From assembly GCA_947626075.1 (NCBI GenBank), contig CANQQW010000011.1:1-41733 (forward strand): a stretch of DNA of 41,733 nt, given 5' to 3'. The position numbers and the translations under genes are program-made. The notes beneath the pieces were generated by a model, which was not told the origin of the DNA, did not search any database, and was given only the letters and a program-made list of their open reading frames with translations. Positions within the stretch are counted from its first letter, which is position 1. Each line of letters starts with the position of its first letter. This document shows positions 16,205 to 21,320 of this stretch, piece after piece. Source of the DNA: an uncultured Clostridia bacterium. Its GTDB lineage: Bacteria; Bacillota; Clostridia; UBA1381.

Positions 16205-18007
16205 GTGGCGAGACGCATTTCGGACGACATGATAGCGCGCATTTGCGACGAAAACGACATAATAGACTACGTTTCCGAGTACGTGCGCCTAAAAAAGTCG
16301 GGACGTGATTACAGCGGGCTTTGCCCGTTCCATCACGAAAAAACGCCATCGTTTCATGTAAGTCAGGAAAAGCAGCTTTTTCACTGCTTCGGCTGCGGAG
16401 CGAGCGGCAACTTGGTACAGTTTGTAATGCGCAGTGAAAACCTTGACTTTGTGGATTCCCTGAAGCTCCTTGCGGACAGAGCGGGTATTATAATACCCGA
16501 GGACGACGCGGATTTTAGCGACGAAAACCACGAAAAGAAAAAGAAACTGCTTGCGATGAACAAACACGCCGCGAGATTTTTCTATAACTGTTTAAAGGAT
16601 AATTCCATAGGTGAAAAGGGACGTAAGTATTTTATAAAACGTAAAATATCATGGAAAACCGTGACCGTATACGGGCTCGGATTCGCGCCGGACAGCCGTG
16701 ATATGCTTATCAAATATCTTGCCTCAAAGGATTTTACCGTAGACGAGATTGTGGAGGGCGGTTTGGCGGTACGCCGCGAGGGACGCGTATATGATAAATT
16801 CAGGAACCGCGTCATGTTCCCAATTATAGACGTTAGAGGAAACGTGATAGGCTTCGGCGGACGCGTAATGGACGACAAAAAGGAAGTCAACGGCTACAAA
16901 ATTCCGAAGTATCTGAACTCGCCCGAAACATTGGTATTCGATAAAGGCAAAAATCTCTTTTCGCTTAATCTCGCAAAAAACGCCAAAGCGTCCGACGTCA
17001 TACTGTGCGAGGGATATATGGACGTTATATCGGTATATCAGGCGGGTATAAAAAATATAGTAGCAACGCTCGGAACGGCGATTACGGAAAATCAGGCTAA
17101 GCTGATGCTCCGTTACGCGGGCGAAATACTGATATGCTACGACAGCGACGAAGCCGGAACAAAGGCGGCATTGAGGGCTATAGACGTAATAAGCTCCGTG
17201 GGCGGACGCTCGCGCGTGATACGTTTAAAGAACGCGAAAGATCCCGACGAATACATAAACAAAAACGGAGTTGAAAGGTTTAAGGAGGCTGTCAAGAACG
17301 CGATGCCCTCCACCGAATTTAAAATTTCGCTTATAAAAAATCAGTACGACACAACGACTGCCGACGGTAAGATACTGTTCATTGACGAGACGGCTAAAAT
17401 ACTTGCGGGTATTAAGGACGCAGTGGAGGTTGACGCGTATATCACAAAGATAGCGGATGACACGGGTATAAGCCGTGACGCTGTATTGAGTAAATATCGT
17501 GAAAAAACCTCGAAAAATACTTACAGAAGAATACCGTTAAAGACGGAATATCAAAAAAAGAATGAGCGTAAGGAACGTACAACTGCGCGTGAGGAAAAGG
17601 TAACGCCGGGACTTATCGCCGCGGAAAAACGGCTGTTGGGTCTTATATCGCAGAGCAGAAAGCTTTACAGAATCGCAGAAAAGCATATTAAGGCGGAAGA
17701 TTTTTCAACACCGGTCTACAGAAAGGTAGCAAAGCTGATTTACGAAAGCTACAGTCATGACAACGCTCCCGAGCCGGCAATAATATTAAATTCGTTCAGC
17801 GGCGACGACCTTGGCGAAGCATCGGAGGTTTTTTATAATCTTGAGGTTTACAACGGTGACGAGGCAACGGTCAAGGAGCTTTTATATACAATCACACTGG
17901 AAAAACTGGATATCCGCATCAACTCGGAGACCAACGCGGCGACTCTTGCCGAACTATTCAAGGAACGGGAAAAGGTACTTGAAGAAAAAAATATGTGGGA
18001 GGAATAA
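16205..18007 (+). CDS. dnaG: DNA primase
   Basis: Synthesises RNA primers at the replication fork together with DnaB helicase. The 600 residues begin at GTG behind a perfect GGGAGGTG site. The N-terminal CHC2 zinc finger is [11 protein letters not shown]...HCFGCG (about residues 40-65). The core is followed by the TOPRIM domain with CEGYMDVIS and the metal pair YDSDEAG near residue 320. A helicase-binding domain lies at the C-terminus. Its stop overlaps the proposed rpoD start by one base, the classical primase-sigma operon. Confidence 0.96.
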
Positions 18008-19170
18008 TGGTAATGCTTGAAAGGAAAAAGGCTATAAAAAAGGAGCTTATCGACAAGGGGAAGAAAAAAGGGGTTCTTTCCTATAAAGAAATAAACGACG
18101 CGTTTGAAGATATTGAGATCGCGACGGAGGAGATTGAGCAGCTTTATGACAAATTTGAAAAGGAAGGTATAGAGCTGGTAGAGGATCTCGACAAGGAGCT
18201 TGAGGAAATAGAGGTCAGCAAAGAGGAACTTGAAGACTTATCCGTGCCGGAGGGTATTAATATTGACGACCACGTAAAGATGTACCTAAAGGAAATAGGC
18301 AAGGTAAATCTTCTTACTGCCGAGGAGGAAATGTCTCTTGCTAAGCGTATGGCTGACGGTGAGGAAGCAAAAGCGGCGCTTGAGGACGAGGAATCGGAGC
18401 TTACCGACGCTGAAAGAGAACAGCTTGAAATTATTGTCGCGGACGGCGAACAGGCGAAAAAGGGACTTGCCGAAGCGAATTTGAGACTTGTCGTAAGTAT
18501 AGCGAAGCGCTATGTGGGACGCGGTATGCTCTTCCTTGACCTTATACAGGAGGGAAATCTCGGTCTTATTAAAGCTGTGGACAAGTTTGACTACACTAAG
18601 GGATATAAATTCTCGACCTATGCCACATGGTGGATAAGACAGGCTATCACACGCGCTATCGCCGATCAGGCGCGAACGATAAGAATACCGGTGCATATGG
18701 TAGAAACGATAAACAAGCTTGTGAGAGTATCGCGTCAGCTCGTGCAGGAATTGGGACGCGAGCCTACTCCCGAGGAGCTTGCAAAGGAGCTTAATATGCC
18801 GGTTGAAAAAGTGCGTGAGATTTCAAAAATTTCACAGGAGCCGGTTTCTCTTGAAACTCCGATAGGCGAGGAGGAGGACAGCCACCTCGGCGACTTTATC
18901 CCCGATGACGACGCTCCCGCGCCGTCGGAGGCGGCGAGCTTCGTACTCTTAAAGGAACAGTTGGGCGACGTTTTAAAAACGCTTACTCCGCGCGAAGCTA
19001 AGGTTTTAAGACTGCGCTTCGGTCTTGACGACGGACGCGCAAGGACGCTTGAAGAGGTCGGCAAGGAGTTTGAGGTCACAAGGGAAAGAATAAGACAGAT
19101 TGAGGCTAAGGCGCTTCGCAAGCTGCGCCACCCGTCGAGAAGCAAAAAGCTTAAGGATTTTCTTGACTGA
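18007..19170 (+). CDS. rpoD: Primary sigma factor (sigma-70/sigma-A)
   Basis: Directs RNA polymerase to housekeeping promoters. About 387 residues: an acidic region 1.1-like N-terminus; region 1.2 [11 protein letters not shown]; region 2 with [18 protein letters not shown] and [10 protein letters not shown]; region 3; and region 4 with the helix-turn-helix [20 protein letters not shown]. The start is taken at 18007 (TAATG overlap with dnaG), though ATG 18013 is equally possible; GGAGG at 17998-18002 lies 4 or 10 bases away. The housekeeping promoters found in this window match its known consensus. Confidence 0.95.
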
Positions 19171-19227: not shown

Positions 19228-20193
19228 ATGAATTGGATACAAATAACAATCTATACCACGTCTGAGGGCATAGAGCCGGTGAGCGGAAGACTGTATCAGC
19301 TCGGTATAACGGGACTTGAGATAGAGGACGAGCGGGATTTCAATGACTTCCTTGAAAACAACAGACAGTACTGGGACTACGTTGACGACGAACTTATAAA
19401 GAAAATGCAGGGCGAAACCAAAGTAAAGGTATACGTAAGCGATGACAGCGCCGGACGCGAGCTGCTTTTCGCGATAAAATCAACGCTTGCGCAATTAAAG
19501 GCGCTCGACTCGGAAAATGAGTTTGGCAGACTTGAAATTGAATTTGACAGCATGACCGAGGAGGACTGGGCGAATAACTGGCGGCAATATTTCCACACAA
19601 TGGAGATAGGTGAAAAGCTTATAATAAAGCCGGAATGGGAGAAGCTTACGGAGCCTACCGACAGGATTGTATTCAACATAGAACCTGGCATGAGCTTCGG
19701 TACAGGCTCGCACTATACGACGCAGCTTTGCCTGGAGGCGCTTGAACGGTACATAACACCCGGCGTAAAAATGCTCGATCTCGGATGCGGCAGCGGAATA
19801 TTGTCAATAATCTCACTGCTATTGGGCGCGGACGCCGCTGTGGCTGTAGACATAGACCCGAACGCCGTTGATACCGCCTACGCAAACGCCGCGAGAAACG
19901 GTATTGACAAGGCGAAATACACCGTACTTGCCGGGAACGTAGTTACCGATACGGACATACAGGCAAAAATAGCGGAAAACAAGTACGAGGTTGTGGCGGC
20001 GAACATTGTCGCGGACGTTATAATAGGACTTGCTCCGAAGGCAAAGGAGTATATGAAAGAAGGCGGCGTTTTCATAACCTCGGGAATTATTGAGGACAGA
20101 ATAGACGACGTTACAGCCGCGCTTAAAGAGAACGGATTTAATATTATTGAGATAAACAGACGCAAGGACTGGGCGTCGGTAATATGTGGATAA
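19228..20193 (+). CDS. prmA: Ribosomal protein L11 methyltransferase
   Basis: Methylates ribosomal protein L11 with SAM. The 321-residue protein has the PrmA N-terminal domain (MNWIQITIYTTSEG, EEDWANNWRQYFH), then FGTGSHYTTQLCLEAL. The methyltransferase core shows MLDLGCGSGILSI for SAM and VVAANIVADVI as the catalytic NxxA-type motif. GGAGG precedes the ATG. The following gene begins 11 bases after its stop. Confidence 0.94.
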   Translation: MNWIQITIYTTSEGIEPVSGRLYQLGITGLEIEDERDFNDFLENNRQYWDYVDDELIKKMQGETKVKVYVSDDSAGRELLFAIKSTLAQLKALDSENEFGRLEIEFDSMTEEDWANNWRQYFHTMEIGEKLIIKPEWEKLTEPTDRIVFNIEPGMSFGTGSHYTTQLCLEALERYITPGVKMLDLGCGSGILSIISLLLGADAAVAVDIDPNAVDTAYANAARNGIDKAKYTVLAGNVVTDTDIQAKIAENKYEVVAANIVADVIIGLAPKAKEYMKEGGVFITSGIIEDRIDDVTAALKENGFNIIEINRRKDWASVICG

Positions 20194-20204
20194 AGAGGCG
20201 GAAT

Positions 20205-21320
20205 ATGATAAAAATACAGGATAATATATATTATATCGGAGTTAATAAGGCAGGACGCGTAAGCGATAACGCGTATCTTATAACGGGCGCGAAAAACGCG
20301 CTTATAGAAACGGTTTCGGACGAAAACGCCGACGAATACATAAAAAATATCGAGTCCGTAATCTCGGTAAAGGACATTGATTATCTGATATTTACGCATA
20401 CCGAGCCGCATTGTCTGCGAAGCATGGAAGCCATTATCGGTAAAAATCCGAATATTGAGGTTATAGGAACAATTCCGACGGTGAAGAACCTTAAAGAAAT
20501 AACAAACAGCGCGTTTAACGAGAGCATAGCGAAAAATAATTCCGAGCTTGATTTGGGTAAAGGATTGACGCTTCGGTTTACGGTCGCTCCGAATCTGCCA
20601 TGCCCCGACAGTATGCTTGTTTTTCTTGGAAACGGCAGCGCGCTTTTTTGCGGCTGCCTGTTCGCGTCGGAATACGTTGGCGATGACTTGTATAACGCGG
20701 ATTTTAAATACGCGGCGGAGTATTACAAAAACAACTTGCTGCCGTTTGACGCGTTCGTGCGCGGAGCGCTCGGGAAAGTGCCGGATAGTACGGAGCTTAT
20801 AGCGCCGAAAATCGGAGGCGTAATAAGGGACGGAGTACAGAATTTCACAAAAAAATACGCGGAGCTTGTACGCGCCGGCGAGGACGGTAAAAAGACCGTT
20901 GCCGTATGTTATATACCCGACGGCGGTTACACGGCGAAAATGGCTGATATAATCGCAAAGGCGCTGTCGGAAAACGGCGTAAACGTATATATGGCGGACG
21001 CCGCAGGAAAGGGCGTCGGAGAAGCGCTTAACAGCGCCGATGCGCTTGTAATAGGCGCGTCTACCTTACACAGAAACGCAAAAAAAGAAATTTGGGACGC
21101 GGTTACAAGCCTTAACGCGGTCAGAGTAAACGGTAAGCCGTACTTTGTATTCGGCTCATACGGCTGGAGCGGCGAGGGCTTGGAGCTTGTTCATCAGCAT
21201 TTGAAAATGCTCCGCATGAAGCCGTTTTTAAAACCCATAGGCGTTCTTTTTAATCCCTCCGAAAAAGACATACGGGAGCTTACGGATACAGCCGCGCGCT
21301 TTGCCGAAACGCTTTTATGA
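20205..21320 (+). CDS. Flavodiiron (FprA-type) homologue with replaced metal ligands
   Basis: About 371 residues with the two-domain plan of A-type flavoproteins: a beta-lactamase-like domain (1-245) and a flavodoxin-like domain (250-371, with VIGASTLHRNA and FGSYGWSGEG). Canonical flavodiiron proteins bind two irons through H-x-E-x-D-H, a His, an Asp and a His. Here the first motif is HTEPHC (His65, Glu67, His69, Cys70). The next His is Pro132 in NLPCPDSM, the Asp is Cys151 in LFCGCLF, and the last His is Ile203. Only two ligands are unchanged, so ordinary oxygen or NO reduction is unlikely. The FMN phosphate loop is also changed (IPDGGYTAKMA). The start at 20205 follows AGAGG; an earlier ATG at 20184 has no such site. 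It may be cotranscribed with prmA. Confidence 0.82.
   Translation: MIKIQDNIYYIGVNKAGRVSDNAYLITGAKNALIETVSDENADEYIKNIESVISVKDIDYLIFTHTEPHCLRSMEAIIGKNPNIEVIGTIPTVKNLKEITNSAFNESIAKNNSELDLGKGLTLRFTVAPNLPCPDSMLVFLGNGSALFCGCLFASEYVGDDLYNADFKYAAEYYKNNLLPFDAFVRGALGKVPDSTELIAPKIGGVIRDGVQNFTKKYAELVRAGEDGKKTVAVCYIPDGGYTAKMADIIAKALSENGVNVYMADAAGKGVGEALNSADALVIGASTLHRNAKKEIWDAVTSLNAVRVNGKPYFVFGSYGWSGEGLELVHQHLKMLRMKPFLKPIGVLFNPSEKDIRELTDTAARFAETLL

Follow-up and report, generated by a model that had tools for sequence, protein, structure and literature searches.

The gene at 20205..21320 of the window (the whole stretch of 41,733 nucleotides that was analyzed) derives from a flavodiiron protein (FDP) whose iron site has eroded. 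Its orthologues at the dnaG-rpoD-prmA locus, present in about 50 genomes of one Clostridia family, carry almost any residue at the ligand positions. The product of this locus is probably a metal-free FMN protein that remained after an FprA assumed O2/NO reduction, in analogy with Flv1/Flv2. The gene and its upstream neighbors are arranged as follows:

16205..18007, + strand: dnaG, a conserved neighbor.
17995..19170, + strand: rpoD (major sigma factor), a conserved neighbor by synteny.
19228..20193, + strand: prmA, the direct upstream neighbor in 40 of the 40 orthologous regions retrieved.
20205..21320, + strand: the FDP-derived paralogue gene, 371 amino acids, lactamase-like at about residues 1-226 and flavodoxin-like at about residues 230-371.

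The open reading frame of 371 amino acids extends on the + strand from an ATG at 20205 to a stop at 21320. It starts 11 nt after the stop of prmA, and a ribosome-binding-like sequence, AGAGGCGGA, is located ahead of it at 20194-20202. Pfam models match the N-terminal half (ODP/Lactamase_B) and the C-terminal half (flavodoxin), and NCBIfam flavorubredoxin models match residues 20-369 with scores far under their cut-offs. The domain order, metallo-beta-lactamase-like and then flavodoxin-like, is that of class A FDPs, but the seven-ligand set of that class, H-E-D-H-H-D-H, is not present; the flavodoxin domain runs to the last residue, 371, and is not followed by the C-terminal flavin-reductase domain that is a trait of class C (class definitions in PMC4390876 and PMC6616624). 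Since the protein descends from class A but fails the defining ligand set, the label of oxygen or nitric oxide reductase would be unwarranted. The Pfam ODP match and a related lactamase fold are shared with ODP, an oxygen-binding diiron chemotaxis sensor; ODP chains match mainly the lactamase-domain part, whereas the window protein continues into the flavodoxin domain. A free-standing flavodoxin was rejected because a complete N-terminal lactamase-like domain is retained and predicted to be folded.

A preliminary description of this DNA had proposed structure prediction as a check. An AlphaFold (AF2) model, built on 41 orthologues, has a mean pLDDT of 93.4 and the full FDP fold, and it aligns over its full length with ROO (1e5d, Z 37.7, the best match) and with Moorella FprA (1ycf, Z 37.6), with 367 residues aligned. 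Other FDPs align with it as well, among them the Flv1 core with a full-length fold match (Z 32), and in a sequence comparison with solved structures the top hits are FDPs, led by the Flv1 core. The window protein thus has in common with the class A proteins ROO and FprA both domains, the fold and FMN loop 3; it differs from them in the replacement of five of the seven ligands, in the loss of the phosphate-loop Ser and in an identity of only about 24%. The ligand positions and FMN loops are located as follows:

20397..20414, + strand: HTEPHC, residues 65-70, a remnant of the HxExDH iron-ligand motif with D changed to H at 69 and H to C at 70.
20598..20603, + strand: Pro132-Cys133, where the HWPD motif has the ligand His followed by a conserved Trp.
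20649..20657, + strand: Cys149-Gly150-Cys151, in place of the segment with the bridging Asp.
20811..20813, + strand: Ile203, in place of the seventh ligand His, in the SHGP motif.
20913..20933, + strand: IPDGGYT, residues 237-243, the FMN phosphate loop, with Ser238 lost (Pro) and Gly241 and Thr243 kept.
21150..21176, + strand: FGSYGWSGE, residues 316-324, an FMN loop nearly invariant across the orthologous group.

Alignment with canonical relatives placed the ligand positions at H65, E67, H69, C70, P132, C151 and I203, exactly the residues that the preliminary description had named, with unchanged spacing among the first six and with Cys133 and Cys149 beside changed positions, as it had also stated. 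H65 and E67 are retained, and the canonical residues at the five changed positions are Asp (69), His (70), His (132), Asp (151) and His (203). All seven positions are 100% identical in 88 canonical-type proteins. A chance misalignment of the ligands was rejected in view of the conserved spacing and the structure match over the full length. The observation that the FMN phosphate loop is altered while GSYGWSG is kept was borne out as well: Ser238 is replaced by Pro, and G241, T243, T287 and FGSYGWSGE are intact. Among 43 degenerate orthologues the FMN contacts G241, T243, T287, G317, G320, W321 and G323 are conserved at 95-100%. Residue 238 is P, P, A and P in the window protein, L047, L048 and L049, respectively, so FMN binding is less sure in this subclade than in the group. 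One orthologue, L054, has FGSYGRGGE for FGSYGWSGE, with Arg at the otherwise nearly invariant Trp of position 321. Lys110 occurs in every degenerate member and in 69% of the canonical ones.

In the 40 regions retrieved, rpoD and dnaG also adjoin the FDP gene wherever the contig extends far enough, and the adjacency to prmA holds in most further family members. Because of this common position after prmA, the copies in the family are orthologues by position. Three of them (L052, L055 and L056) read HEDHHD at the first six ligand positions; other states are HEDLHD, HEDNHD, HEDRND, HEDCND, HENRND, HSERTE, CGEYPR, SSYNPS, TKEFPE and TREFCE, among others. The three canonical orthologues share with the window gene its place and its loops, but they keep the seven ligands, evolve more slowly and belong to genomes in which no second FprA was found (G001, G024 and G026; 99, 88 and 81% complete). 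Within the 43 degenerate orthologues the commonest residue accounts for 70, 51, 30, 37, 33, 44 and 16% of the seven ligand columns. The mean of 40%, compared with 44% for the average column of that domain, indicates that there is no visible constraint on the ligands. A scan of a wider genome collection by the FGSxGW loop, which returned the best 80 matches and covers FDPs of that subclass only, found HEDH-H-D-H in all 80 relatives, one of which (L087) is in fact the L056 contig from within the family. The full site was also present in all five FDPs taken from elsewhere in the order, outside the family (one of these five, L167, is identical with L089). Two g11 copies, L076 and L078, have open frames of 700 and 634 residues, longer than the FDP core, and three regions (L193, L195 and L196, from G058, G065 and G063) contain dnaG-rpoD-prmA without an FDP match in the retrieved region.

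In the wider clade the degenerate members replace ligands by Arg, Lys, Phe, Asn or Pro. Of the 27 members with Lys or Arg at position 67 or 70, 24 carry Asp or Glu at residue 151, versus 6 of the remaining 16 (p 0.0012, uncorrected for kinship). This pattern suggests that in certain lineages the space left by the metal may be occupied by a basic side chain.

The preliminary description had advised a search for a second canonical FprA, and one exists: the window genome (G000) carries elsewhere (G000:C22) a fully canonical protein, L002, with ligands HEDH-H-D-H. The combination by which Flv1/Flv2-type proteins are recognized, substituted ligands in a genome that also encodes a canonical FDP, is therefore found here. 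A second FprA occurs in 48 of the 49 degenerate genomes counted, G002 and G020 being included from short fragments; the exception, G068, is 73% complete. The association of the second FprA with the state of the site has a Fisher p of 1.8e-4, uncorrected for kinship; once kinship is considered, the independent contrasts number three and agree in direction, and with that number a sign test cannot reach 0.05. Two of the three canonical genomes, moreover, are only 81 and 88% complete. Both FDP types are present in G092, from another family, and the site is kept there, which indicates that redundancy allows decay but does not force it. No full FDP of either type was found in G058, G021, G028, G030 and G061 (58-91% complete). 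A rubredoxin domain (PF00301) was not detected in 14 of the 16 genus g1 genomes, including G000, so a rubredoxin partnership was rejected for the window genome. Within genus g1 the domain was found in G001, which has a canonical site and no second FprA, and in G004, which has 8% contamination. Rubredoxin presence across the family does not strictly track the state of the site.

These observations are best accommodated by the following pathway. A canonical two-domain FDP would have been inherited vertically at the dnaG-rpoD-prmA locus in one Clostridia family. As the genome encodes another, canonical FprA, the diiron site at the prmA locus would have become dispensable and would then have eroded repeatedly, with selection continuing to act on the flavodoxin domain that binds FMN. 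The flavin of the metal-free protein would face the empty former metal pocket, and the protein would either carry electrons or work as a simple flavin oxidoreductase, leaving O2/NO reduction to the other FprA. We infer that the metal is absent, that FMN is bound, that the role is one in electron transfer and that FprA came first and the erosion after.

The strongest rival to this explanation is that the degenerate protein is a non-catalytic partner, which would join the canonical FprA head to tail in a mixed oligomer and offer its FMN to the diiron site of that partner, on the pattern of cyanobacterial Flv1/Flv2 with Flv3/Flv4. Mixed FDP oligomers occur in cyanobacteria (PMC4390876, PMC6658166), and a Flv2/Flv4 heterodimer has been modeled with the FMN of one and the diiron site of the other (PMC4390876). 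Such a partnership would agree with the finding that almost all genomes bearing a degenerate copy also have a canonical FprA, with the retention of the FMN loops and with the alignment, in which Flv1 has the same D83-to-Asn and H84-to-Arg changes as the HENR members. A common interface should slow evolution, but the evolutionary rate of the degenerate protein far exceeds that of FprA: the identities between the window genome and G009 are 76% for the degenerate protein and 94% for FprA, and those with G012 are 52% and 86%. Furthermore, the two proteins belong to different FDP subclasses (GSYGWSGE versus ENGSW loops) and their genes are not adjacent. We regard the mixed oligomer as doubtful. It would likewise be rather surprising if, in convergence with the Flv1/Flv3 and Flv2/Flv4 pairs, an FDP paralogue of anaerobic Clostridia had turned repeatedly, and independently, into a partner of FprA that bears FMN but no metal.

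The dN/dS of the FDP gene is 0.19 between the window gene and L047 and, for further pairs of close species, 0.27 and 0.14-0.15, compared with 0.02-0.12 for intact neighbor genes (dnaG values for L063 were omitted because the gene is cut). As judged from these sequence pairs, purifying selection on the FDP gene is real but several-fold weaker than on its neighbors. At a prmA identity of 56-62%, canonical FDP pairs are 57-62% identical and degenerate pairs average 32-33%. The three canonical members occupy three different places in a species tree made from rpoD, prmA and dnaG, on which irreversible loss of the site would require about 11 events, and they lie near the base of the FDP gene tree. 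The latter rejects the monophyly of genus g1 (AU p 0.009), which may be due to long branches or gene exchange; a grouping of L052, L058, L050 and L051 is not rejected (AU p 0.26). This conflict makes the number of losses uncertain; more than one in the family is likely. A gene on its way out, that is, a near-neutral remnant whose decay is recent or whose transcript is needed for the neighbors, would also evolve fast and could show the altered FMN loop of the window subclade, and the absence of a downstream FDP in G058, G063 and G065 is compatible with it. This possibility is made quite improbable by a dN/dS well under 1 in each close pair measured and by reading frames that stay open in almost all orthologues, even deep within the family. 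A recent pseudogene is disfavored by the same dN/dS values and open frames.

Four of the five cysteines of the window protein (C70, C133, C149 and C151) lie in the old pocket, C133 at a position normally occupied by Trp and, like C149, adjoining a changed ligand position. The preliminary description considered the metal site rebuilt and saw in the protein either a redox or scaffold protein free of metal or a thiolate-containing metal site with a new activity, and it named free variation of the cysteines among homologues as one result that would refute its view. All four recur only in L047, the nearest species; L048 keeps C70, and L049 keeps C70 and C133. Among strict orthologues C70 occurs in six species of the genus, C133 in three, and C149 and C151 together in only two. 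This free variation led us to reject a conserved cysteine metal site across the clade; the sharing that exists is what common descent would give and does not in itself demonstrate a conserved thiolate site. The metal-free reading is supported and the thiolate reading is not, and, as conservation in the ligand columns does not exceed that of an average column, the clade is better described by an eroded site than by a rebuilt one. A thiolate-containing metal site or a redox-active Cys site formed by H65, H69, C70, C133, C149 and C151 could exist, confined to the window species and the relative closest to it, given the four pocket cysteines that both possess. Residues shared at 76% identity are weak evidence, the sets in L048 and L049 are partial, Pro and Ile occupy two of the seven ligand positions, and the erosion in the wider clade leads to other residues. 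We therefore give such a site little chance.

At its metal site the window protein comes closest to cyanobacterial Flv1/Flv2 (class C; Flv1 core 6h0c/6h0d), with which it shares ligands replaced by non-ligand residues and a canonical FDP in the genome. It differs from them in having no third, flavin-reductase domain, in its anaerobic Clostridia host and in replacements that vary from species to species instead of being fixed. In the titles and opening parts of abstracts found by a small number of searches of the openly licensed literature, no ligand-lacking FDP family in Clostridia is named. Overall similarity to FDPs is a poor basis for annotating such genes as nitric oxide or oxygen reductases. 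Flv1 and Flv2 raise the question of whether FDPs without iron ligands have a function. The orthologues described here include, at one fixed locus, a complete site, the loss of a single ligand and no recognizable site at all, and these graded states make the step from an iron enzyme to a metal-free flavin protein traceable and testable.
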